A DNA stretch of 64,000 nucleotides from Oscillospiraceae bacterium (GTDB lineage: Bacteria; Bacillota; Clostridia; Oscillospirales; Oscillospiraceae). The position numbers and the translations under genes were made by a program. Of the stretch, positions 4,830 to 60,246 are shown one piece after another; within the stretch, counting starts at the first letter, position 1, and each line of letters starts with the position of its first letter. Under the pieces are notes generated by a model, which saw nothing but the letters and a program-made list of their open reading frames with translations, did not search any database and was not told where the DNA came from. The stretch is taken from assembly GCA_017436955.1 (NCBI GenBank), contig JAFSCD010000006.1:49895-113894 (forward strand). The letters run 5' to 3'.

Positions 4830-5070
4830 TGATAAAGGCTGCGATGAAGACACGCGCTTCCGGTAAGATTCCCAGAGAGGGTGCCACCTTGGTGCAAGGC
4901 ATCCGTAACCCTGCCGTTTGCGATACCACTTCTGAGCCGTATGCGCGGAAATGCCATACCGGGTACGCCCGTTAAAGCGTCAATGAGTGGCAGCTGCGGC
5001 TGCAACCAGGGTGGAACCGTGGAATACTTTGTATCCCACCCCTGATCTTTCGGGGGCTGGGACTTTTTTT
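4830..5070 (+). promoter_or_regulatory. T-box leader, threonine-specific, of thrS
   Basis: A stem I region with the AGAGAGGG and GGTGCAAGG elements is followed by a specifier-loop sequence in which ACC (4925-4927, Thr) precedes ACTTCTGAGCC. The conserved T-box AGGGTGGAACCGTGG lies at 5008-5022. A GC-rich terminator (5034-5060) with a T run (5064-5070) ends the leader. Uncharged tRNA-Thr would pair with the specifier and the T-box and favour the antiterminator, switching on thrS. Confidence 0.93.
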
Positions 5071-14138: not shown

Positions 14139-15431
14139 ATGAATATCAACTACTTCCACCCTGCTGACCAGCTGGTTATGTTTATGCAGCGCATCTATGA
14201 CAAGGGTATGACCACCACCTCCGGCGGCAATCTTTCCATCATTGACGATGACGGCAATATCTGGATCACACCGGCCGGTGTTGACAAGGGTACCCTTAAC
14301 CGCGGTGATATCGTCTGCGTGAAGCCCGACGGCACCTGCATCGGTCCCCACAAGCCTTCCTCGGAGCTGCCCTTCCACGCAGCCGTGTACAAAATGCGTC
14401 CCGACCTGCGTGCGGTGCTGCACGCCCATCCCCCGGCGCTGGTATCCTTCTCCATCGTCCGCAAGCTGCCGGATATGGAGCTGCTGCCTTCCGTACAGAA
14501 GGTCTGCAACGATCTGCGGATCGCCACCTACGCCGTTCCCGGCAGCGATCAGCTGGGCGAGAATATCGGCGAATGCTTCGCCAAGGGCAGCGACATCGTG
14601 ATTTTGGAAAACCACGGTGTTTGCATCGGTGCGCAGACCATGTTTGCCGCTTTCCAGAAGTTTGAGACCCTGGACTACACTGCCAATCTGGAAATCCTGG
14701 CAAAGCGCATCGGCAAGGTCAAGTCCCTGCCGGATGAGGCCATCCGTATGACCGAGACCACCACCCACCTGAAGATGGACGACTTTATCCCCAACAGCCA
14801 CACCTCCGAGGAGCTGGCTGCCCGCCGGGATATGATCACCCTGATCCGCCGCAGCTATCGCCAGGGTCTGTTTACCGCCACCCACGGAACTTACTCTGTA
14901 CGGCTGTCCGATGGCAGCTTCCTCATCACCCCCTTCGGTATGGACCGCGCCTATCTGGAGGAGGAGCATCTGGTGCGTGTCAAGTCCGGTATGAAGGAGC
15001 TGGGCAAGACCCCCTCCCGTGCCGTTGGTCTGCACCAGGAGATCTACGATGCCAACCCCAATATCCATGCCGTTCTGCTGGCACATCCCGTTCACGCCAT
15101 GGCCTTCGCCGTGACCGATGCCAAGTTTGACCCCAGAACCATTCCCGAAAGCTACATCCTGCTTCGTGACGTCAAGCGGATCCCCTACGGCAAGATCTAC
15201 ACCGAGCAGAAGGAAACCGCCAAGGTCTTTACCGATGCCTGCCCGGCAGTGATGGTGGAAAACGATTGCGTCATCGTTACCGGTGAAAGCCTGCTGAAGG
15301 CCTTTGACCGGCTGGAGGTCATGGAATCCACCGCACACTCCATTATCAACTCCACCGCCATTGGCGACATCGTCCACATCACCCAGGATGAGGTGGAGGA
15401 TCTGAAGATCGCCTTCAACCTGAAAGACTGA
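14139..15431 (+). CDS. Double-domain class II aldolase/adducin family protein
   Basis: A 430-residue protein built of two class II aldolase folds in tandem. The N-terminal copy (about 1-200) keeps the motifs TSGGNLSI, the phosphate-contact SSELPFHAAVY, the zinc site HAHPPALVSF and the distal ILENHG histidine. The C-terminal copy (about 220-425) has THGTYSVRL, GLHQEIYDA, AHPVHAMAF and VMVENDC, so several zinc ligands are altered. Single-domain relatives cleave or isomerise sugar phosphates (fuculose-1-phosphate and ribulose-5-phosphate types). The substrate is unknown. Only the first copy may be catalytic. It is a single-gene unit with its own promoter and terminator. Confidence 0.82.
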   Translation: MNINYFHPADQLVMFMQRIYDKGMTTTSGGNLSIIDDDGNIWITPAGVDKGTLNRGDIVCVKPDGTCIGPHKPSSELPFHAAVYKMRPDLRAVLHAHPPALVSFSIVRKLPDMELLPSVQKVCNDLRIATYAVPGSDQLGENIGECFAKGSDIVILENHGVCIGAQTMFAAFQKFETLDYTANLEILAKRIGKVKSLPDEAIRMTETTTHLKMDDFIPNSHTSEELAARRDMITLIRRSYRQGLFTATHGTYSVRLSDGSFLITPFGMDRAYLEEEHLVRVKSGMKELGKTPSRAVGLHQEIYDANPNIHAVLLAHPVHAMAFAVTDAKFDPRTIPESYILLRDVKRIPYGKIYTEQKETAKVFTDACPAVMVENDCVIVTGESLLKAFDRLEVMESTAHSIINSTAIGDIVHITQDEVEDLKIAFNLKD

Positions 15432-28230: not shown

Positions 28231-28266
28231 CAAAGCAAAACCCCCATTCGAGTGAATGGGGGTTTT
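28231..28266 (-). terminator. Intrinsic terminator ending the aryl-pyruvate operon
   Basis: A 13-bp perfect stem (28266-28254 with 28249-28237) followed by TTGCTTTGCG on the minus strand, immediately after the aminotransferase stop. Confidence 0.85.
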
Positions 28267-28270
28267 CAGA

Positions 28271-29440
28271 TCAACGCATTTTCTCCTCAATGTGAGACAA
28301 TCGCTCCAGCGCTTCGTTCAGCGTGGAATCCAGCTTTGCAAAGTGCAGGCGGACGATGTTGTTCACATCCGGCTCGCTGAAGAAGGAGCTGCCGGGAACA
28401 GCGCCGACACCCACCTTCCGGGCAAGCTCTTCGCAGAACTCCACGTCGGACTGACCCTTCTTCAGATAGGGAGAAATGTCAGCCAGCACGAAGTAGGCGC
28501 CCTGGGGATCGGTGTAGGGAATACCGATGCGATCCAGGCCCTCGGTAAACAGCTTCTTCATGTGGGCGTAATGTGCGCCGAACTCCTCATAGTAGCTGTC
28601 GGGCATATCCAGACCCACCACAGCCGCCTCCATCAGCGGAGACGCGCAGCCCACGGTATTAAAGTCGTGATACTGCTTAATGCGATCCATAATGTGCTTG
28701 GGCGCGATGGCATAGCCCAGACGCCAGCCGGTGATGGAATAGGTCTTGGACAGAGAAGAACAGGACACGGTGCGCTCCCACATACCGGGCAGGCTGTTCA
28801 TATAGATGTGCTTGTGACCCTCATAAACGATATGCTCGTACACCTCGTCCATAATGGCGTAAACATCGTACTTGATACACAGATCCGCGATCAGCTTCAG
28901 CTCGTCATAGGTAAAGACCTTACCGCTGGGGTTGGAGGGATTGCAGATCAGAATGGCCTTCAGCCCCTGCTTAAAGGCATCCTCCAGCACGTTGGGGTCA
29001 AAGTTGAAGGTGGGCGGTACCAGAGGGATGAACACCGGCTCACACTGCGCCATAATGGCCTGCGCCCGGTAGTTCTCAAAATAAGGCGAGAACATTGCGA
29101 TCTTGTCGCCGGGATTGGTCAGGGCGAAGATGGTATCCACCATTGCCTCGGTGGAACCGATGGTAACCACCATATCGGTGTTGGGATCCAGCTCACGTCC
29201 CATAAAACGACCGCATTTTCTTGCCAGCGCCGCACGGAAATTGGGTGCGCCCATGGTAATGGGATACTGGTGGGGTCCTAAATAGCTGACCTCGTTCAGG
29301 CGATCCAGCATTGCCTTGGGAGGATCAAAATCCGGGAAGCCCTGTGCCAGATTGATGGCGCCGCAATCCAGGGAAATACGGGTCATCCGGCGGATCACAG
29401 AATCCGTAAAATGCTGATTCTTTCTGCTCATTTCTTGCAT
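28271..29440 (-). CDS. PLP-dependent aminotransferase class I/II (probable aromatic aminotransferase)
   Basis: A 389-residue fold-type I aminotransferase. It shows the substrate-site sequence INLAQGFPDFDPP near 30-42, ICNPSNPSGKV near 168-178, the Tyr/Asp pair in AIMDEVYEHIVY near 200 and the PLP lysine in SSLSKTYSITGWRLGYA near 235. The closest resemblance is to the kynurenine/methionine/aromatic aminotransferase group. As the last gene of a unit with indolepyruvate oxidoreductase and aryl-CoA ligases, it most likely interconverts arylpyruvates and aromatic amino acids. GAGG lies 8 bases before ATG 29440. Confidence 0.87.
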   Translation of the reverse strand: MQEMSRKNQHFTDSVIRRMTRISLDCGAINLAQGFPDFDPPKAMLDRLNEVSYLGPHQYPITMGAPNFRAALARKCGRFMGRELDPNTDMVVTIGSTEAMVDTIFALTNPGDKIAMFSPYFENYRAQAIMAQCEPVFIPLVPPTFNFDPNVLEDAFKQGLKAILICNPSNPSGKVFTYDELKLIADLCIKYDVYAIMDEVYEHIVYEGHKHIYMNSLPGMWERTVSCSSLSKTYSITGWRLGYAIAPKHIMDRIKQYHDFNTVGCASPLMEAAVVGLDMPDSYYEEFGAHYAHMKKLFTEGLDRIGIPYTDPQGAYFVLADISPYLKKGQSDVEFCEELARKVGVGAVPGSSFFSEPDVNNIVRLHFAKLDSTLNEALERLSHIEEKMR

Positions 29441-29460
29441 AGCTCGTACCTCAAAATCAA

Positions 29461-29889
29461 TTAGTGAATACCCAGCTCATCCGCCGTGGTGGGCGTAATG
29501 CCGTGGGTCGCCAGCAGGGACACGAATTTCTCCGCCTCTCCTACCCGGAAAACGATATACGCCTTGCCGCCGGTATGGGTAAACAGAGAGTACATATACT
29601 CAATGTCAATGTCGCCCTCTGCCAGCGTTTCCAGCACCGGCGCAATACCGCCGGGCACGTCGGGAACAGAAACCACCAGCACTGGAGTCATCGTCAGCAG
29701 ATACTCGTGCTCCATCAAAACAGCGGTCGCCTTCTGCGCGTCATCCACGATCATACGCAAAATGCCGTAATCGGCAGTTTCGGCGATGGACATCGCACGC
29801 AGATCAATGCCGTTGTCCGCCAGAGCGGATGTGATCTCCGCCAGCTGACCGGCACGGTTTTCCAAAAATACAGAAATCTGATAAACCAT
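29461..29889 (-). CDS. Tandem ACT-domain protein
   Basis: A 142-residue protein of two consecutive ACT domains. The first begins ISVFLENRAGQLAEITSAL near residue 4; the second begins VLVVSVPDVPGGIAPVLETLAEGDI near 72. Such small proteins bind amino acids and occur very often beside phenylacetate-CoA ligase and indolepyruvate oxidoreductase genes in anaerobes. It is likely a sensor or allosteric partner for aromatic amino acids, but no direct evidence of ligand exists in the sequence. It lies 11 bases after the PaaK-type ligase gene. Confidence 0.88.
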   Translation of the reverse strand: MVYQISVFLENRAGQLAEITSALADNGIDLRAMSIAETADYGILRMIVDDAQKATAVLMEHEYLLTMTPVLVVSVPDVPGGIAPVLETLAEGDIDIEYMYSLFTHTGGKAYIVFRVGEAEKFVSLLATHGITPTTADELGIH

Positions 29890-29900
29890 ACTGTCCCTCC

Positions 29901-31199
29901 TTAAATCTTACGCTTGTCAATGATACGGACGGCCTTGCCCTCGCTGCGGGCAATGGTCTTGGGTGCCACCAGGCGCACCTTGGCGTAGATGCCCAGCATG
30001 GACTTCAGCGCGTCCACCAGCTTCTTTTCCATAGCGGTGACCTTCGCCAAAGAGTCGGAGAAGTTCTCCGGTGCCATTTCCACCATAACCTCCAGCGTGT
30101 CGGAATGGTTGACCCGATCCACCACGATCTGATAGTTGGCAGGATAGCCCTGCTCCAGCAGCACCTGCTCGATCTGGGACGGGAATACGTTGACGCCCTT
30201 GACGATCAGCATATCATCGCTGCGACCCATAGGCTTGGACATCTTGACATGGGTTCTGCCGCAGGGGCACTTCTCCCGGGTCAGGATGCAGATATCCTTG
30301 GTGCGGTAGCGAAGCAGCGGGAACGCCTGCTTGGTAATGGCGGTGAACACCAGCTCGCCCTTGCTGCCTTCCGGCAGGACCTCGCCGGTTTCGGGGTCGA
30401 TGATCTCCGCGATGAAATGATCCTCATTGATGTGCATGCCGGTCTGCGCTTCACATTCGTAGGCAACGCCCGGACCGGAGGTCTCCGTCAGACCGTAAAT
30501 ATCATAAGCCTTGATGCCCAGGCTGGCTTCGATCTCTCTGCGCATATTTTCGCTCCAGGCTTCCGCGCCGAAGATGCCGGCCTTCAGCTTGATCTGATCC
30601 CGCAGACCACGCTCGTGAATGGTTTCTGCCAGATACGCCGCATAAGAAGGCGTGCAGCACAGAATCGTAGAGCCCAGATCCGTCATAAACTGCAGCTGAC
30701 GGTCCGTATTGCCGGAGGACAGCGGCAGCGTCAGGCAGCCCACCTTGTGGGAGCCGCCGTTCAGACCGGGACCGCCGGTGAACAGACCGTAGCCGTAAGC
30801 CACGTGAACTACATCCTCCCTGGTGCCGCCGGCCGCCACGATGGCACGGGCGCAGCAATCTTCCCACAGATCAATATCGTGCTGGGTGTAGAAGGCCACA
30901 ACACGCTTGCCGGTGGTGCCGGAGGTGGACTGGATGCGGACACATTCGGACAGGGGCTTGCCCAACAGACCGTAGGGGTAAGCCTCACGCAGATCGTCCT
31001 TGCTTAAGAAGGGCAGCTTGTAAAGATCATCCACGCTCTGAACGTCCGCAGGGGTCAGACCCTTCTCCTCCATCTTCTTGCGGTAGTAGGGCACATTTTC
31101 CCACACGTGCTGTACCTGCTTGACCAGGCGCTCATTTTGCAATGCCAGGATCTGCTCTCTGGAAGCAGTTTCGATTTCAGGCTGATAATATTTTCCCAT
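29901..31199 (-). CDS. Phenylacetate--CoA ligase (PaaK family)
   Basis: A 432-residue adenylate-forming enzyme that makes aryl-acetyl-CoA, AMP and PPi from an arylacetate, ATP and CoA. Its P-loop-like motif is IQSTSGTTGKRV near 88-99, the A5 region is DIYGLTETSGPGVA near 235, and the hinge and C-terminal lysine region is RSDDMLIVKGVNVFPSQIE near 328. It is encoded with IorA/IorB and an ACT protein, the standard grouping in archaea and clostridia. Run forward it harvests ATP from arylacetyl-CoA; run in the reverse sense it activates arylacetates for carboxylation. Confidence 0.92.
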   Translation of the reverse strand: MGKYYQPEIETASREQILALQNERLVKQVQHVWENVPYYRKKMEEKGLTPADVQSVDDLYKLPFLSKDDLREAYPYGLLGKPLSECVRIQSTSGTTGKRVVAFYTQHDIDLWEDCCARAIVAAGGTREDVVHVAYGYGLFTGGPGLNGGSHKVGCLTLPLSSGNTDRQLQFMTDLGSTILCCTPSYAAYLAETIHERGLRDQIKLKAGIFGAEAWSENMRREIEASLGIKAYDIYGLTETSGPGVAYECEAQTGMHINEDHFIAEIIDPETGEVLPEGSKGELVFTAITKQAFPLLRYRTKDICILTREKCPCGRTHVKMSKPMGRSDDMLIVKGVNVFPSQIEQVLLEQGYPANYQIVVDRVNHSDTLEVMVEMAPENFSDSLAKVTAMEKKLVDALKSMLGIYAKVRLVAPKTIARSEGKAVRIIDKRKI

Positions 31200-31216
31200 T
31201 TTACATTCGCCTCTTT

Positions 31217-31789
31217 TTAGATATTTCGTCCCAGCCGGAACGCAGTCTTATTCATTTCCAGGAATTTTGCGGGGACACACTGTTCAATGGCCTGCAGCCA
31301 TTCTTCTTCCGCAAAATCAAAGTAACGGGACAGATGACCCATCAAAACGATATTCACCGCCTTGGAAGAGCCTGCCTGCTGCGCCAACGCCAGCGCATCA
31401 ACGGCATCCACATCAAGCCCTGCAGCCTGCATCTGCCCGGCAAGTCCCTGGGGATACTCCGCAGCGCCGGTGATGACCGGCATAGGGCTTATCTGCTGGG
31501 TATTGACCACGATCTTTCCGCCGGGCTTTAAGTATTCGGTCCAGCGGGCAGCTTCCAGCAGCTCAAAGGAAACGATAAAATCCGCTTCTCCCTTGTCAAT
31601 GACGGGAGAATAGACCTTGTCGCCGAAGCGAACATAGGTCACCACGCTGCCGCCGCGCTGGCTCATACCGTGAACCTCGGAGACCTTGATATCAAAGCCC
31701 TTCTGCAGCAGCATACGACCCAGCAGCTTGGAGGCCAGCAGACTTCCCTGACCGCCAACACCAACGATCATAATATTCTTCGTTTTCAT
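31217..31789 (-). CDS. iorB: Indolepyruvate:ferredoxin oxidoreductase, beta subunit
   Basis: A 190-residue gamma-type domain of the 2-oxoacid:ferredoxin oxidoreductases. It begins KNIMIVGVGGQGSLLASKLLG, followed by EVHGMSQRGGSVVTYVRFG near 38-56, both diagnostic. With IorA it catalyses arylpyruvate + CoA + oxidised ferredoxin to arylacetyl-CoA + CO2 + reduced ferredoxin, a reversible reaction. Three bases separate it from iorA. Confidence 0.95.
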   Translation of the reverse strand: MKTKNIMIVGVGGQGSLLASKLLGRMLLQKGFDIKVSEVHGMSQRGGSVVTYVRFGDKVYSPVIDKGEADFIVSFELLEAARWTEYLKPGGKIVVNTQQISPMPVITGAAEYPQGLAGQMQAAGLDVDAVDALALAQQAGSSKAVNIVLMGHLSRYFDFAEEEWLQAIEQCVPAKFLEMNKTAFRLGRNI

Positions 31790-31792
31790 CGC

Positions 31793-33529
31793 TTAATCCT
31801 CCTTTGCAGCCGTCAGCGCATCGAGCTTGCAAAGCTGGGCGCAGACGCCGCAGCCGGTACACAAGGTATTGTCGATGTGTGCTTTTTTGTCAATAACGCT
31901 GATGGCAGGACAGCCGATCTTCATACAGGCCTTGCAGCCGATGCACTTGTCGGAATTGGCAATGATAGGCTTTTTATGCTTTACATATTTCAGCAGTGCG
32001 CAGGGTCTGCGGGAGATAATGACGGAAGGCTCGTCAACCGCGGTCTCCTCCTTGATAGCGGCATCGCAGGCAGCCAGATCATAGGGATCCACCACCCGGA
32101 CACGGTTGATGCCAACCGCGCGGCACAGTGTTTCCAGATCGATCTTGGTGCAGGGATCCCCCTTCAGGTTGAAGCCGGTGGTGGGATTCTGCTGATGACC
32201 GGTCATACCGGTGATGGAATTGTCCACGATGATGACCGTTCCGCAGGATTCATTGTATGCCATATTGATCAGACCCGTCACACCGGAATGCATAAAGGTG
32301 GAGTCGCCAATGACAGCAACCACCTTTCTGCCCTCACCGCCGCCGGCCTTGGTAAAGCCGTGCATACCGGAGATGGAAGCGCCCATACAAATGGTGGTAT
32401 CCAGCGCTGCCAGCGGCGCAACAGCGCCCAAGGTATAGCAGCCGATATCACCCAATGCGGTGACCTTATTCTTTGCCAGAGTGTAGAACAAGCCTCTGTG
32501 GGGGCAGCCGGCGCACATCACAGGCGGGCGCATCGGAATTGCCGCGTCCAGCTTCGTTCCGCTCTGGGTAGCAACGCCCAGCTTTTCCGCCACGAGATTC
32601 TGGGAAAATTCGTCGATGCAGGAGAACAGCGCCTTACCCACGCAGTCAATGCCAAGCTGACGGCAATGATCCTCGATAAAGCTGTCCAGCTCCTCCACCA
32701 CGATCAGCTTGTCCACGCTTGCCGCGAAATCCACGATCTTCTGCTTGGGCAGCGGCCAGATCATACCCAGCTTCAGCACGGGATAACGGTCACCGCAGAC
32801 CTCCTTCACATACTGATAGGAGGTGGACGAGGTGATGATGCCGATGCTGTGATCCGTGCCGTCCTCAATGCGGTTGATCCCGGCAGTTTCTGCCCATACT
32901 GTCAGCTTTTCAGTGCGCTCCTCCACGATGGGATGGCGGCGCTTGGCGTTGCCGGGCATCATAATGTACTTCTGGGGATTCTTTTCGTAGGGCTTGCTGA
33001 CCTCCACCCGGTCACCGGGCTCCACCACACTCTGGGAATGGGCAACGCGGGTACACATCTTGATGAATACGGGGGTGTCAAACTGCTCGGACAGCTGATA
33101 AGCCAGCTTGGTAAATGCCAGGGCTTCCGCAGAATCGGAAGGCTCCAGCATAGGGATCTTGGCGGCTCGGGCATAATGCCGGGAATCCTGCTCATTCTGG
33201 GAAGAATGCATACCGGGATCGTCTGCCACGCCGATGACGAAGCCCGCGTTCACGCCGGTGTAGCCTACGGTGAACAGCGGATCCGCCGCCACGTTCAGAC
33301 CCACGTGCTTCATTGCGCAGAAGCTTCGCTTGCCGGCAAGGCTGGCGCCGAAGGCGGCTTCCATAGCCACCTTTTCATTGGGCGCCCACTCGGCGTAGAC
33401 TTCTTTGTAGAGCGCAACGCATTCGGTGATCTCGGTACTGGGCGTACCGGGATAACTGGACACGAAGCTGCAGCCGGCCTCGTAAAGGCCTCTGGCAACG
33501 GCTTCGTTGCCAAGCATCAGTGTTTTCAT
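31793..33529 (-). CDS. iorA: Indolepyruvate:ferredoxin oxidoreductase, alpha subunit
   Basis: A 578-residue thiamine-diphosphate enzyme. The N-terminal pyrimidine-binding domain starts MKTLMLGNEAVARGLYEAG with the SSYPGTPSTEI motif. The ThDP/Mg motif is GDSTFMHSGVTGLIN...NSITGMTGHQ near 395-430. Two [4Fe-4S] ferredoxin motifs are at the C-terminus (CIGCKACMKIGC and CTGCGVCAQLCK near 535-570). The substrates are arylpyruvates from Trp, Phe or Tyr. Its start codon overlaps the stop of the symporter gene by four bases (ATGA). Confidence 0.96.
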   Translation of the reverse strand: MKTLMLGNEAVARGLYEAGCSFVSSYPGTPSTEITECVALYKEVYAEWAPNEKVAMEAAFGASLAGKRSFCAMKHVGLNVAADPLFTVGYTGVNAGFVIGVADDPGMHSSQNEQDSRHYARAAKIPMLEPSDSAEALAFTKLAYQLSEQFDTPVFIKMCTRVAHSQSVVEPGDRVEVSKPYEKNPQKYIMMPGNAKRRHPIVEERTEKLTVWAETAGINRIEDGTDHSIGIITSSTSYQYVKEVCGDRYPVLKLGMIWPLPKQKIVDFAASVDKLIVVEELDSFIEDHCRQLGIDCVGKALFSCIDEFSQNLVAEKLGVATQSGTKLDAAIPMRPPVMCAGCPHRGLFYTLAKNKVTALGDIGCYTLGAVAPLAALDTTICMGASISGMHGFTKAGGGEGRKVVAVIGDSTFMHSGVTGLINMAYNESCGTVIIVDNSITGMTGHQQNPTTGFNLKGDPCTKIDLETLCRAVGINRVRVVDPYDLAACDAAIKEETAVDEPSVIISRRPCALLKYVKHKKPIIANSDKCIGCKACMKIGCPAISVIDKKAHIDNTLCTGCGVCAQLCKLDALTAAKED

Positions 33530-35088
33530 AGGATCTCCTCCTTTGTTTCTCCAATGGAGTCGGTTACGCGGACGGTTACCGTGCGCTCATAGCAGGAAAA
33601 GACCTGCCGGATATGCGCCTCCTCCGGTTTTTTGGTAAACAGGCTGACCACAGGCACGAGGATCAGCCCAAAGAGCATACAGAACACGCCGGCGTTGATG
33701 GGCGTGCGCAAAACAGCCGGGAAATACTGGGGGAAGAAGATATTGCAAAGCATCACTGCCGTAGAGAACAAAAAGCTGCTCCAAACGGCGGCCTTGGTGG
33801 TCTTCTTCCAGTAAAGTCCAAACAGGAACGGTGCCAGGAACGCACCTGCCAGCGCGCCCCAGGATATGCCCATAAGCTGGGCGATAAAGGTGACGTTGGA
33901 GCCGTATTGGATCAGCGCCAGCACCACGGAAATGAGAATAAATACAACGATCAGCAGACGGATGGACAGCAGCTGATGCTTTTCGTCCATTTTCTTCACC
34001 AAATTTCCCTTGATGAAATCCAGCGTCAGCGTGGAGCTGGAGGTCAGCACCAGCGACGACAGCGTGGACATGGAAGCCGACAGCACCAGAATGACCACCA
34101 CAGAGATCAGAAACGGAGACAGATCGGAAAGCATCGCCGGAATAATGGCATCATAGCCTTCAGCCGCCACATCCACCCGATCCGAAAACAGCCGTCCGAA
34201 GCCGCCCAGGAAATAGCAGCCGCCGGCTACGATCAGGGCGAACACAGTGGAAATGACCATGCCCTTGTTGATCGCCTTCTCGCTCTTGATGGCGTAGAAT
34301 TTCTGCACCATCTGCGGCAGACCCCAGGTTCCCAGGGAGGTCAGGATCACCACGCCCAGCAGATTGACAGGATCCGGTCCCAGAAAGGAGGCAAACGCGC
34401 CGGGAATATCCGACACCGCGGGGTCAGACACCTGACCCAGCTTGCGCAGCGCCTCTGTGAAGCCGCCCTGTCCGTTCAGCACCGCGGCGATCACCGCAAC
34501 AATGCCGACGATCATAACGATGCCCTGCACAAAATCGTTGATCGCTGTTGCCATATAGCCGCCGGCGATCACGTAGACAGCGGTGATGACCGCCATAACG
34601 ATGACGCAAACGGAATAGTCAATATTGAACGCCATACCGAACAGCCGGCTCAGACCGTTATAAAGGGACGCTGTGTAGGGGATCAGGAAAATGAAGATAA
34701 TGGCGGAAGCCGCCAGCTTCAGACCGGGGCTGTCAAACCGCTTTTCAAAAAACTGGGGCATCGTGGCGCTGTTTAAGTGCTGGGTCATCACCCGGGTACG
34801 ACGTCCCAGTATCCACCAGGCCATCAGCGAGCCGAGAAGCGCGTTGCCGATGCCTGCCCAGGTGGCGGCGATGCCGTATTTCCAGCCGAACTGACCTGCG
34901 TAGCCCACAAACACCACCGCGGAGAAATAGGAAGTACCGTAGGCAAAGGCCGTCAGCCACGGACCGACGCTGCGTCCGCCCAGCACAAAGCCATCCACAT
35001 CGGTGGAATGTTTTTTACAGTAGATGCCAATGCCGATCATGATCGCAAAGAACACGATAACCATTGGCAGTTTGATAAGAAGATCCAT
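33526..35088 (-). CDS. Sodium:solute symporter (SSS family)
   Basis: A 520-residue membrane transporter with about 13 helices and the SSS hallmarks: GGRSVGPWLTAFAYGTSYFSAVVFVG near residues 37-62 (split in two here, sodium-site helix 1), NALLGSLMAWWILGRRTR near 80-97 and GGYMATAINDFVQG near 172-185. It would import an organic anion with Na+. Set between an acyl-CoA ligase and IorA in a Phe-T-box operon, a phenylacetate-like acid is the best guess. It overlaps iorA by 4 bases. Confidence 0.9.
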   Translation of the reverse strand: MDLLIKLPMVIVFFAIMIGIGIYCKKHSTDVDGFVLGGRSVGPWLTAFAYGTSYFSAVVFVGYAGQFGWKYGIAATWAGIGNALLGSLMAWWILGRRTRVMTQHLNSATMPQFFEKRFDSPGLKLAASAIIFIFLIPYTASLYNGLSRLFGMAFNIDYSVCVIVMAVITAVYVIAGGYMATAINDFVQGIVMIVGIVAVIAAVLNGQGGFTEALRKLGQVSDPAVSDIPGAFASFLGPDPVNLLGVVILTSLGTWGLPQMVQKFYAIKSEKAINKGMVISTVFALIVAGGCYFLGGFGRLFSDRVDVAAEGYDAIIPAMLSDLSPFLISVVVILVLSASMSTLSSLVLTSSSTLTLDFIKGNLVKKMDEKHQLLSIRLLIVVFILISVVLALIQYGSNVTFIAQLMGISWGALAGAFLAPFLFGLYWKKTTKAAVWSSFLFSTAVMLCNIFFPQYFPAVLRTPINAGVFCMLFGLILVPVVSLFTKKPEEAHIRQVFSCYERTVTVRVTDSIGETKEEIL

Positions 35089-35112
35089 AAAATATCAAAG
35101 TCTTTCTGTTGA

Positions 35113-36750
35113 TCAGCCGGTGATCTGGCTTTCCACCAGCCGACCCTTGCAGTATTTTTCACGCAGCACCGGCTTTTCGATCTTGCCGGTGGGGTTTCTG
35201 GGAATCTTGTCGAAGATGATCTTTCTGGGGCGCTTGTACCGGGGCATACCCATGCAGAAGGTGTTGATCTCCTCTTCCGTGCAGGTCACGCCTTCCTTCA
35301 GCTCCACGATAGCTGCCGCGATTTCGCCCAGACGGGCATCGGGCAGACCGATGACCGCCACGTCCTTGATCTTGTCAAAGCCCCGCAGGAAGTCCTCGAT
35401 CTGGACGGGATACAGGTTTTCACCGCCGGAGATGACCACGTCCTTCTTGCGATCCACCAGGTAGATGAAGCCATCCTCGTCCATACGGGCCATATCGCCG
35501 GTCCAGAGCCATTCGCCCTTTAGGACTTCGTCGGTGGCCTCGGGATTCTTGTAGTAGCACAGCATTACGCCGGGTCCCTTCACCGCCAGCTCGCCGACCT
35601 CGCCCTGGGGGACTTCGTTGCCGTGTTCATCCACGATCTTGGTCTCCCACAGGTAGCCGGGCTTGCCGATGGCGCCCACCTTGTGGGTATTCTCCACGCC
35701 CAGATGGACACAGCCGGGACCGATGGACTCGGAAAGACCGTAGTTGGTGTCATACTGATGGTGAGGGAACTTTTCCTTCCAGCGGCGGATCAGGCTGGGG
35801 GGTACGGGCTGGGCACCAATGTGCATCAGCCGCCACTGATCCAGGTAATAGTCGCCAAGATCAATACGTCCTGCATCCACAGCATCCAGAAGGTCCTGCG
35901 CCCAGGGCACCAGCAGCCACACGATGGTGCATTTTTCTTCCGTAACCGCCCGCAGGATCCACTCCGGCTTTACGCCCCGCAGCAGAACTGCCTTGCTGCC
36001 GGAAAGCAGCGAGCCAAACCAGTGCATCTTTGCGCCAGTGTGATACAGCGGCGGAATGCACAGGAATACATCGTCAGCAGTCTGGCCGTGGTGATTTTGC
36101 TCCACCATACAAGCGCAGGTAAGCGATCTGTGATCGTGCAGGATCGCCTTGGGGAAGCCGGTGGTACCGGAAGAGAAATAGATGGCTGCATAGTCATCTT
36201 CCGTCAGCGCCACTGGGGGCGGATTGGAAGAGCAGAAGCCCATCAGCCGCAGGCAATCTTCCGCATACGCAGGACCGTTCTTGCCCACGAAGAACATCAT
36301 TTTCAGGAAGGGGATCTCATTTGCGATGGCATCCATCCGGCTGACAAACTCCGGACCGAACACCAGCACCTCCGCATCCGCCAGATCCAGGCAGTACTTG
36401 ATCTCTTCGGAAGAATAGCGGAAGTTCATCGGCACAGCGATGCAGCCGGCCTTGAGGATGCCGAAATAGATAGGCAGCCACTCCAGGCAGTTCATCAGCA
36501 GGATCGCAACCTTCGTTCCCTTTTGCAAGCCACGGCTCAGCAGCAGATTGGCAAAGCGGTTTGCCCGGCGGTCAAAATCCTGCCAGCTCATTTCCCGGCG
36601 GTAGGGCGCATCGGGATTCGCGTTTTCGATCAGGTTGAAATCACGCCAGGTAACGGCGTTGTCACGCTCCTCGGAGGGGTTGACCTCCACCAGTGCGGTC
36701 TTTGCGCCGATGAGTCTGGCATTTCGCTCCAAATAATCTGTAATAACCAT
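35113..36750 (-). CDS. AMP-forming acyl-CoA synthetase
   Basis: A 545-residue ANL-superfamily ligase. It has the P-loop YFSSGTTGFPKAIL near 183-196, the A5 motif DTNYGLSESIG near 312, the A7 motif WTGDMARMDEDGFIYLVDRKKD near 415-436 and the catalytic lysine in NPTGKIEKP near 530. It forms an acyl- or aryl-CoA through an acyl-adenylate. The head of the operon also includes a transporter and IorAB, so activation of an imported aryl or fatty acid is likely. ATG 36750 follows AAAGGA; an ATG 13 codons earlier overlaps the T-box terminator and is rejected. Confidence 0.88.
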   Translation of the reverse strand: MVITDYLERNARLIGAKTALVEVNPSEERDNAVTWRDFNLIENANPDAPYRREMSWQDFDRRANRFANLLLSRGLQKGTKVAILLMNCLEWLPIYFGILKAGCIAVPMNFRYSSEEIKYCLDLADAEVLVFGPEFVSRMDAIANEIPFLKMMFFVGKNGPAYAEDCLRLMGFCSSNPPPVALTEDDYAAIYFSSGTTGFPKAILHDHRSLTCACMVEQNHHGQTADDVFLCIPPLYHTGAKMHWFGSLLSGSKAVLLRGVKPEWILRAVTEEKCTIVWLLVPWAQDLLDAVDAGRIDLGDYYLDQWRLMHIGAQPVPPSLIRRWKEKFPHHQYDTNYGLSESIGPGCVHLGVENTHKVGAIGKPGYLWETKIVDEHGNEVPQGEVGELAVKGPGVMLCYYKNPEATDEVLKGEWLWTGDMARMDEDGFIYLVDRKKDVVISGGENLYPVQIEDFLRGFDKIKDVAVIGLPDARLGEIAAAIVELKEGVTCTEEEINTFCMGMPRYKRPRKIIFDKIPRNPTGKIEKPVLREKYCKGRLVESQITG

Positions 36751-36786
36751 ATTTCTATGTCCTTTCGGGAAGAATATGCGGGGCAA

Positions 36787-37047
36787 CAAAAAAAGCCCTC
36801 TGCTTACTAGCAGAGGACGAGTTTACCCCGTGGTACCACCTCAATTTACCGCAGAAGCCGCGGCCTCATCCGGTCCCAACAGACCGTAAGCGCAATATCG
36901 GGCGCACCCGTCTCCGCCTACTGGGAATTTCAGCAGAGCCGCTCGGAAAGGAATTCGGCGCTTCTCTTCTGCTGCCTCGCACCAAACGGCAGCTCTCTGG
37001 AAGAAGAACGGGTAGCGCTTACTGGTTTTCGTCACCGCGTTTAATAT
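36787..37047 (-). promoter_or_regulatory. T-box leader, phenylalanine-type, of the aryl-pyruvate operon
   Basis: On the minus strand: stem I with AGTAA (37027-37020 region), the AGAGAGCTG and GGTGCGAGG elements, and a specifier loop GAA-TTC-CTTTCC-GAGC in which TTC (36953-36951) codes Phe. The T-box GAGGTGGTACCACGG lies at 36842-36828. The terminator has stem CCTCTGC/GCAGAGG and seven T. The distance from TTC to GAGC, six bases, equals that in the thrS leader of this window. The base after TTC is C, not the usual purine. It should activate the operon when tRNA-Phe is uncharged. Confidence 0.88.
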
Positions 37048-37053
37048 TGTATA

Positions 37054-37082
37054 ACTATACCATCACTTGCGCCAAAAGTCAA
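37054..37082 (-). promoter_or_regulatory. Promoter of the Phe T-box operon
   Basis: TTGACT, a 17-base spacer and TATAGT on the minus strand just upstream of the leader. Confidence 0.8.
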
Positions 37083-58862: not shown

Positions 58863-60059
58863 TTAAGCCTCCAGGTTGATGCCGGTCTCCTTGTCGAAAA
58901 CGTGGCAGACAGAGCCGGGGAAGGTGAACTTGATCTGGGCACCCATGGTCAGTGCGGAGATCTCAGCACCGGTCATGTTCATGGTGGACAGGATCAGAAC
59001 GACGTCCTTACCCAGAGCGGTAGCGTGCAGGTGGATGGAGGAGCCCATCAGCTCGTGCACGTCGACGGAAGCATCAATGCCCTCGCCTTCTGCCAGGGAA
59101 ACGTGCTCGGGACGAACACCCATGGTAACGGGGCCTTCCTCCACGTTGTTGGCAGCCAGTCGCTCCTGCTTGTCATCAGACAGAACAATGGTGGTGCCGC
59201 CAACGGAAACAGCATACTTGCCGTCAACCTTAACCAGGTCAGCATCCAGGAAGTTCATCTGGGGAGCGCCGATGAAGCCGGCAACGAACAGGTTGTAAGG
59301 ATGGTTAAAGACTTCCTGAGGAGTGCCGATCTGCTGGATGAAGCCGTCCTTCATAATGACGATACGGTCGCCCAGAGTCATAGCCTCAGTCTGGTCGTGG
59401 GTAACATAGATAAAGGTGGTGTCAATGCGCTCGCGCAGCTTGATGATCTCAGCACGCATCTGGTTACGCAGCTTGGCGTCCAGGTTGGACAGGGGCTCGT
59501 CCATCAGCATGACCTTGGGGTCACGGACGATCGCACGGCCGATCGCAACACGCTGGCGCTGACCGCCGGACAGAGCCTTGGGCTTACGGTTCAGATACTC
59601 GGTAATGTCCAGGATAGCGGCTGCCTGATGCACCTTTGCCTCGATTTCCTTCTTGGGCATGTGGCGCAGCTTCAGAGCGAAAGCCATGTTGTCATAAACG
59701 GTCATGTGGGGGTACAGAGCGTAGTTCTGGAAGACCATCGCGGTATCGCGGTCCTTGGGTGCAACGTCGTTGACCAGACGGTCACCGATGTACAGCTCGC
59801 CTTCGGAAATCTCTTCCAGACCTGCGATCATACGCAGAGTTGTGGACTTGCCACAGCCGGAGGGACCGACAAGAACGATGAATTCCTTGTCAGCGATCTC
59901 GAGATTGAACTCCTGCACAGCCACGACGCCCTTGTCGGTGATCTGCAGGTTTACCTTCTTCTCGGGTTCCGGAGCGCCCTTTTTCTTTTTCTTGGGCTTC
60001 ATCTCGTCGCCGTTGAAGGGGTAGATCTTCTTGATGTTTTTCAGGGTTACAGTTGCCAT
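58863..60059 (-). CDS. Sugar ABC transporter ATP-binding protein (UgpC/MsmK type)
   Basis: A 398-residue ATPase that energises carbohydrate importers. Walker A is VGPSGCGKSTT near 67-77, the Q-loop MVFQNYALYP near 118, the signature ALSGGQRQRVAIG near 168 and Walker B VMLMDEPLSNLD near 187. The C-terminal regulatory OB domains are present. Between the first strand and GVVAVQEFNLEI lies an extra Lys-rich insert of about 27 residues (residues 15-43, with KPKKKKKGAPEPEKK). No permease genes adjoin, so it probably serves several importers. Its own ribosome-binding site (TCGGAAA) is weak, and a short ORF with a strong one ends 12 bases upstream. Confidence 0.92.
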   Translation of the reverse strand: MATVTLKNIKKIYPFNGDEMKPKKKKKGAPEPEKKVNLQITDKGVVAVQEFNLEIADKEFIVLVGPSGCGKSTTLRMIAGLEEISEGELYIGDRLVNDVAPKDRDTAMVFQNYALYPHMTVYDNMAFALKLRHMPKKEIEAKVHQAAAILDITEYLNRKPKALSGGQRQRVAIGRAIVRDPKVMLMDEPLSNLDAKLRNQMRAEIIKLRERIDTTFIYVTHDQTEAMTLGDRIVIMKDGFIQQIGTPQEVFNHPYNLFVAGFIGAPQMNFLDADLVKVDGKYAVSVGGTTIVLSDDKQERLAANNVEEGPVTMGVRPEHVSLAEGEGIDASVDVHELMGSSIHLHATALGKDVVLILSTMNMTGAEISALTMGAQIKFTFPGSVCHVFDKETGINLEA

Positions 60060-60071
60060 AGTTTTCCGACT

Positions 60072-60170
60072 CTAAATGCACCGGGCTTTCCGCGTACATT
60101 CTCGCGTTCCGGACAGTAAAATTCCGGAAGCATTACGACAGGTCTCCACACTGCCGCACCGTGAGTCCAA
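60072..60170 (-). CDS. Possible 32-residue leader ORF before the UgpC-type gene
   Basis: From TTG at 60170 a frame of 32 codons (begins with DSRCGSVETC after the start, ends RKARCI) stops 12 bases before the ATPase ATG. A strong AAAGGAGG at 60188-60181 lies ten bases before the TTG. The peptide resembles nothing known. It may serve for translational coupling, or the strong ribosome-binding site may be fortuitous. Confidence 0.35.
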   Translation of the reverse strand: MDSRCGSVETCRNASGILLSGTRECTRKARCI

Positions 60171-60246
60171 CGGTTGTTATCCTCCTTTATTTTAGTGAAC
60201 CATACCTATTTTTTGTGGAGTAGGCATAATCCACCTGGATACTAGA

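Follow-up and report, generated by a model that had tools for sequence, protein, structure and literature searches.

We analyzed a 64,000-nucleotide (nt) stretch of DNA, here called the window, from an Oscillospiraceae bacterium (GenBank assembly GCA_017436955.1, contig JAFSCD010000006.1, positions 49,895 to 113,894 of the forward strand), whose genome sequence consists of 18 contigs with 1.54 Mb and is 82% complete. In the window, a T-box leader with a phenylalanine specifier precedes seven genes that include iorA and iorB, which encode an indolepyruvate (arylpyruvate):ferredoxin oxidoreductase (IOR). A T-box permits transcription when its tRNA is uncharged, and we conclude with a probability of roughly 0.85 that this one senses uncharged tRNA-Phe and opens a complete route from aryl acids to aromatic amino acids. 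The anabolic role of IOR that had been proposed in a first-pass annotation of the window is thus supported, being implied by the T-box regulation and reinforced by related loci, but it was refined in two respects: the route most likely serves tyrosine as well as phenylalanine, and it is a salvage route in the window's organism.

The T-box leader and the genes behind it

The first-pass annotation had described a complete T-box leader and suggested a search with a covariance model. In this search (cmscan), the leader matched the complete Rfam model RF00230 (positions 1 to 219) with 134.1 bits and an E-value of 1.2e-29, compared to a gathering score of 93, and it scored highest among the 11 T-boxes of its own genome. 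The Stem I model R1, which was partly built from the same leader, gave 94.7 bits. In those leaders of the genome that have a readable Stem I, the codon is followed by a single base, a helix of 4 bp, another single base, and GAG. This register reads UUC-C-UUUC-C-GAGC in the window leader, UUC-C-CCCG-G-GAGC in the pheS leader, UAC-C-UCCC-G-GAG in the tyrS leader, and ACC-A-CUUC-U-GAGC in the thrS leader; pheS, tyrS, and thrS of the genome exceed their NCBIfam cut-offs, the assignment of pheS having been made at an E-value of 1e-20. The register that the window leader shares with the genome's own pheS and tyrS leaders fixes its specifier as UUC (Phe), as had been read from GAA-TTC, and for this reason shifted frames were rejected for this leader. 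The six-base spacing to GAGC is indeed that of the thrS leader, and the C following TTC, which had been feared to indicate another specifier, likewise follows the codon in the pheS and tyrS leaders. The thrS T-box, with an ACC specifier, is present in the window at 4832-5046 (+) and scored 70.5 bits, below the Rfam gathering score.

As a pattern guess for tRNA-Phe found no match in the genome, we used a tRNA family search, which found 39 tRNAs and returned 30 loci, and ARAGORN, which was run on these 30 and on locus L008. The tRNA-Phe(GAA) and tRNA-Tyr(GUA) identified in this way both end with A-CCA, fitting the UGGU bulge of the T-box. With Stem I above the gathering score, a specifier and discriminator matching host tRNAs, and a terminator and antiterminator that exclude each other, the window leader is confirmed as a T-box with a Phe (UUC) specifier, and tRNA-dependent antitermination is predicted for it. 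The intrinsic terminator at the end of the leader is strong; folded alone, the antiterminator segment was no better than its shuffles. Nine bases separate the promoter-like site from the start of the T-box, and comparable -35/-10 blocks were present ahead of many leaders in relatives.

Seven genes on the same strand come after the leader, separated by at most 24 nt or overlapping slightly (Table 1). Profile searches confirmed the gene order and families as stated in the first-pass annotation; that the genes form one transcript, as it had also stated, we infer from their tight spacing. Both IOR subunits scored above curated cut-offs (TIGR03336 for alpha, NF005325 and NF005322 for beta), with iorB missing TIGR03334 (186.8 versus a cut-off of 205.8 bits), and a comparison of IorA with solved structures gave one weak relative only. 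The two CoA ligases are members of the AMP-forming superfamily. One of them is called PaaK-type only, because it failed the TIGR02155 equivalog cut-off (505 versus 646.3 bits), though its three best solved relatives are phenylacetate-CoA ligases. The solved relatives of the other ligase, ACS, include fatty-acyl-, feruloyl-, malonyl-, and coumaroyl-CoA ligases, and its substrate is not resolved by homology. The symporter scored under the cut-offs of all ten matching NCBIfam transporter models, and for the aminotransferase, 73 NCBIfam models matched, of which the 25 shown all stayed below their cut-offs. A search confined to the seven operon proteins found no kinase, phosphotransacylase, or ADP-forming synthetase, and hence no ATP-conserving enzyme encoded together with IOR as in the oxidative aromatic branch of the Stickland reaction. 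Instead, ligase, IOR, and aminotransferase stand together and are tied to amino acid supply by the T-box, as in an aryl-acid pathway to aromatic amino acids.

Table 1. Features of the predicted T-box-controlled operon, in window coordinates
Feature	Position	Strand	Evidence and remarks
Promoter-like TTGACT-17-TATAGT, extended -10 (TG)	37054..37082	-	Pattern scan, 10/12
T-box leader (Stem I, Stem III, antiterminator)	36810..37044	-	RF00230
Specifier codon UUC (Phe)	36951..36953	-	Register common to pheS, tyrS, and thrS leaders of the same genome
T-box core GGUGGUACCACG, UGGU bulge pairing with tRNA ACCA	36829..36840	-	Rfam and pattern search
Intrinsic terminator of the leader, exclusive with the antiterminator via a common CCUC	36795..36818	-	Fold, pattern scan; antiterminator pairs from Rfam alignment
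AMP-forming aryl/acyl-CoA ligase (ACS), ATG start	35113..36750	-	PF00501, PF13193; list of open reading frames has an upstream TTG at 36789
Sodium:solute symporter (SSF), proposed to import aryl acids	33526..35088	-	PF00474
iorA, IOR alpha subunit	31793..33529	-	TIGR03336, 690 bits (cut-off 650.9)
iorB, IOR beta subunit	31217..31789	-	NF005325, 279 bits (cut-off 230); NF005322, 246 bits (cut-off 237)
PaaK-type phenylacetate-CoA ligase	29901..31199	-	Best solved relatives 2Y27, 2Y4O, 4R1L, E-value 4e-118 or better
Protein with paired ACT domains, may sense Phe for the pathway	29461..29889	-	PF19571, PF01842
Class I/II aminotransferase	28271..29440	-	PF00155
Stem-loop terminator after the operon	28237..28266	-	By eye, AAAACCCCCATTC-ACTC-GAATGGGGGTTTT; absent from the pattern-scan list

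T-box specifiers at related ior loci

Related loci were collected in two sets. An IorA search over 150 genomes of the family (threshold, E-value of 1e-60 or better) was positive for 80, and the first set comprises 80 loci from 76 of the 79 other IorA genomes, with G057, G078, G139, and further second copies or fragments left out. The second set comprises the best 80 of at least 589 named GTDB loci; the IorA protein of one locus, L132, is the same as that of L048. Together with the window, this gave 161 sources. T-boxes were detected by a pattern search and the Stem I covariance model, whose RNAalifold structure has 18 pairs only and served detection, not as evidence of covariation; Rfam RF00230 was applied afterwards. 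Specifiers were read mostly by script, and by eye in L046, L055, and L131.

T-boxes in front of ACS, iorA, or a trpR-like gene leading into iorA were found at 20 of the 161 loci (11 of 80 in the first set, 8 of 80 in the second, and the window), a lower bound, as many relative loci end at contig edges. These loci carry 24 T-boxes, all recovered by Rfam, 19 above and 5 below the gathering score. All 24 specifiers read Phe (UUC) or Tyr (UAC), 19 of them unambiguously. The codon was associated with the following gene: before ACS we found 11 UAC and 4 UUC (window, L046, L058, L131), before iorA 9 UUC and no UAC (Fisher's test, p 6e-4). Without the five ambiguous leaders, the counts were 10 and 4 versus 0 and 5 (p 0.011), and p was 0.029 when the near-copy L130 was omitted as well. 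Four loci (L052, L056, L111, L135) have two T-boxes, a Tyr T-box before ACS and the symporter gene and a Phe T-box before iorA. Stem I hits before other genes (thrS of the window, L066, L096, L147, L191 at 15054-15169, L195) were not counted.

In a quick IorA tree with several long branches, which covered 133 of the 161 sources and 19 of the 20 T-box loci, T-box presence required at least 17 changes and specifier type 7 changes, and the three specifier groups were not clearly more clustered than shuffled labels. Despite this turnover of T-boxes, the specifier stays Phe or Tyr, and therefore the genes most likely supply these amino acids.

In L055, L145, L151, and L159, T-box control of iorA is less certain, because a trpR-like gene and promoter-like sequence intervene between the T-box and iorA. 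In many relatives, iorA is immediately preceded by a trpR-like gene (PF01371), and for 29 of the 161 sources the locus contained a match to this family. Many promoters of ACS and iorA have their -35/-10 region covered by a palindrome resembling TTTAGCACTTAAAAGTGCTAAA, of which the window promoter has a degenerate version only. With 2 mismatches allowed, the window's own genome has a single match to this operator, about 50 nt ahead of where the only trpR-like gene found matches Pfam (G000:C16:82102-82428). The ior regulon looks doubly controlled. Other RNA elements were a malK-I RNA in the window (RF03069, 126 bits, 60054-60238, -) and, near IOR loci of relatives, a fluoride riboswitch (L159, 10651-10578, -) and a molybdenum/tungsten cofactor riboswitch (L087, 12355-12226, -).

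Direction of the pathway and need for it

Flux direction, substrates, and transport are inferred from the genes and their regulation. When uncharged tRNA-Phe is sensed by the T-box, transcription would enter the operon. The symporter would import phenylacetate and probably also 4-hydroxyphenylacetate, which the two AMP-forming ligases would convert to aryl-CoA esters, a reaction type that favors acyl-CoA synthesis; the same argument for ester formation was made for Bacteroides (PMC13285125). As the specifiers split by the following gene, the PaaK-type ligase most likely forms phenylacetyl-CoA and ACS 4-hydroxyphenylacetyl-CoA. IorAB would then carboxylate the esters reductively with reduced ferredoxin and CO2, and the aminotransferase would convert the resulting arylpyruvates to phenylalanine and tyrosine. 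The ACT protein may add feedback by phenylalanine.

It appears very unlikely that the operon is instead catabolic, with IOR (whose iorA gene presumably corresponds to K00179) oxidizing arylpyruvates derived from phenylalanine or tyrosine to arylacetyl-CoA for ferredoxin and ATP, and with the T-box being incidental or driving another member, such as the aminotransferase gene. IOR does take part in amino acid fermentation in Pyrococcus and is reported to be oxidative in Bacteroides (PMC13285125), and K00179 served as a marker of phenylacetate production in one gut study (PMC12176623). However, a catabolic operon switched on by phenylalanine or tyrosine starvation would worsen the starvation. Moreover, Phe or Tyr specifiers occur in 19 unambiguous leaders (24 with the ambiguous ones), five of the unambiguous ones directly before iorA, and the two ligases are AMP-forming, while none of the seven operon proteins was assigned to a kinase or phosphotransacylase family.

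We see similarly little room for a supply of phenylalanine or tyrosine by another way, with direct import of these amino acids by the symporter, or with other acids such as phenylpropionate or cinnamate as substrates of the ligases, and with IOR in a side role. The symporter comes from a broad family and ACS has its best solved relatives outside the arylacetate ligases, but in L042 and in the second leaders of L052, L056, L111, and L135, iorA immediately follows a Phe T-box of its own without an intervening symporter gene, and in four of these five cases paaK follows iorA, the contig of L111 stopping inside iorA. A route leading mainly from indoleacetate to tryptophan, for which the naming of the IOR family after indolepyruvate could be quoted, is scarcely credible and was rejected, since UGG occurs in none of the 24 specifiers, though the same genome has a UGG T-box (L008), and further UGG T-boxes near some IOR loci precede other genes. 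Judged by eye from translations, as were the specifiers, the latter genes encode a substrate-binding lipoprotein (L096), a trpB-like protein (L147), and an unidentified product (L066).

How much an organism needs the aryl-acid route depends on its shikimate-prephenate enzymes. The first-pass annotation had suggested a check for pheA, tyrA, and prephenate dehydratase, and in the window's genome we found prephenate dehydratase as well as prephenate dehydrogenase and chorismate synthase. This result leaves the anabolic role intact but not a role as sole source; obligate dependence is ruled out, and since these enzymes are kept, the route is salvage in the window's organism. A 100% complete relative with a Phe T-box (G137) is without prephenate dehydratase only, whereas its congener G052 has this dehydratase but yielded no T-box at the locus. 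Of two further T-box relatives, G100 (96% complete) is without chorismate synthase and both prephenate enzymes, and in G092 (95%) neither prephenate enzyme scored above cut-off, a weak, lower-scoring dehydrogenase hit not being counted. In some relatives without prephenate dehydratase, the route may be the main internal source.

Several observations weigh against the anabolic interpretation or its generality. Most IOR loci in relatives have no T-box (20 of 161 sources have one). In five leaders (L055, L145, L151, and L159 with UUC, L191 with UAC) a fifth helix pair is needed to obtain the codon; the strict four-pair register gives UCA or ACA, and the Rfam alignment uses it for the first four. 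A shifted frame is possible in these five relatives. Because the UGGU bulge favors a tRNA with discriminator A, they were kept as UUC or UAC and counted apart; the discriminator of tRNA-Ser is usually G. In Bacteroides thetaiotaomicron, an IOR is reported to take part oxidatively in the conversion of phenylalanine to phenylacetate (work cited in PMC13285125). G084 (100% complete), with a Tyr T-box, keeps both prephenate enzymes, a chorismate synthase hit being absent. Among genomes at least 90% complete, prephenate dehydratase was missing in 12 of 54 with IOR versus 3 of 43 without (p 0.049), a weak difference from one of 32 uncorrected tests; for T-box genomes alone, the difference (3 of 10 versus 12 of 87, p 0.18) was not significant. 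Within genera, four contrasts were for and two against an association, both of the latter resting on 66-67% complete genomes. A general association of IOR with loss of prephenate dehydratase, being statistically weak, was not adopted.

Two further observations concern these genomes. In G084, the prephenate dehydratase and dehydrogenase matches adjoin in apparently one open frame of 491 amino acids (G084:C24:64584-65630). For a second IOR type (about 44-52% identical; L096 to L122 except L111), the stretch fetched contained neither a paaK nor an ACT match, nor a Phe or Tyr T-box, yet this type occurs in five genomes at least 90% complete without prephenate dehydratase (G004, G041, G125, G144, G148).

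We give somewhat better than even odds to the broader proposal that many gut Oscillospirales-type clostridia take up phenylacetate and 4-hydroxyphenylacetate for a starvation-induced amino acid salvage with two channels. In this proposal, the ligase and importer for hydroxyphenylacetate are under a Tyr T-box, and the phenylacetate ligase and the IOR common to both channels are under a Phe T-box. Such bacteria would act as sinks rather than sources of phenylacetate, and several of them, having lost prephenate dehydratase, would depend on aryl acids from their neighbors. Genes of this kind are commonly interpreted as producing phenylacetate, and phenylacetate of gut bacterial origin has been linked to phenylacetylglutamine and vascular disease. 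In the gut study mentioned above, which dealt with ageing, genomes with K00179 were counted as phenylacetate producers, and production was shown for one Clostridium strain (PMC12176623). If T-box-controlled iorA runs reductively, some of the producers counted are consumers, and K00179 counts may mix both.

Comparison with known systems

The leader has the standard architecture of T-boxes controlling aromatic amino acid genes (Wels 2008, PMC2494555; PMC7778990), and UUC and UAC account for 99% of the Phe and Tyr specifiers in TBDB (PMC7778990). The known targets named in the available text of these two sources are synthetases, transporters, known biosynthesis genes, and Phe hydroxylase, with no IOR or aryl-CoA ligase among them; TBDB may list such T-box-ior loci unremarked. 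In a search covering openly accessible papers and few subscription ones, we found no paper pairing T-box with indolepyruvate and phenylalanine, or with tRNA and phenylacetate-CoA ligase. T-boxes and the aryl-acid route are thus each known, and their pairing was not found in the literature searched.

Methanococcus maripaludis has an aryl-acid route beside its de novo route (Porat et al. 2004, cited in PMC4162585). The system described here resembles it in IorAB, in the aryl-acid precursors, and in being a second route beside the de novo pathway, but unlike the archaeal one it combines a T-box with genes for two AMP-forming ligases, a symporter, an ACT protein, and an aminotransferase in a single operon. 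Rumen bacteria were reported to form phenylalanine from phenylacetate (Allison 1965, cited in PMC7356843). The chemistry proposed here for gut anaerobes is the same, and whereas that report is older than gene sequences, the operon offers candidate genes and their switch for this synthesis. In Bacteroides, IOR likewise adjoins an AMP-forming arylacetate-CoA ligase, and the authors suggest biosynthesis (PMC13285125); the main text of that paper does not contain the word T-box, whereas here the regulation gives the physiological sense. In Clostridium difficile, by contrast, an iorAB operon that depends on SigL includes butyrate kinase (PMC7438776), where the window operon has AMP-forming ligases. 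The direction of IOR thereby becomes testable by genotype, with a T-box and AMP-forming ligases on one side and SigL and a kinase on the other.

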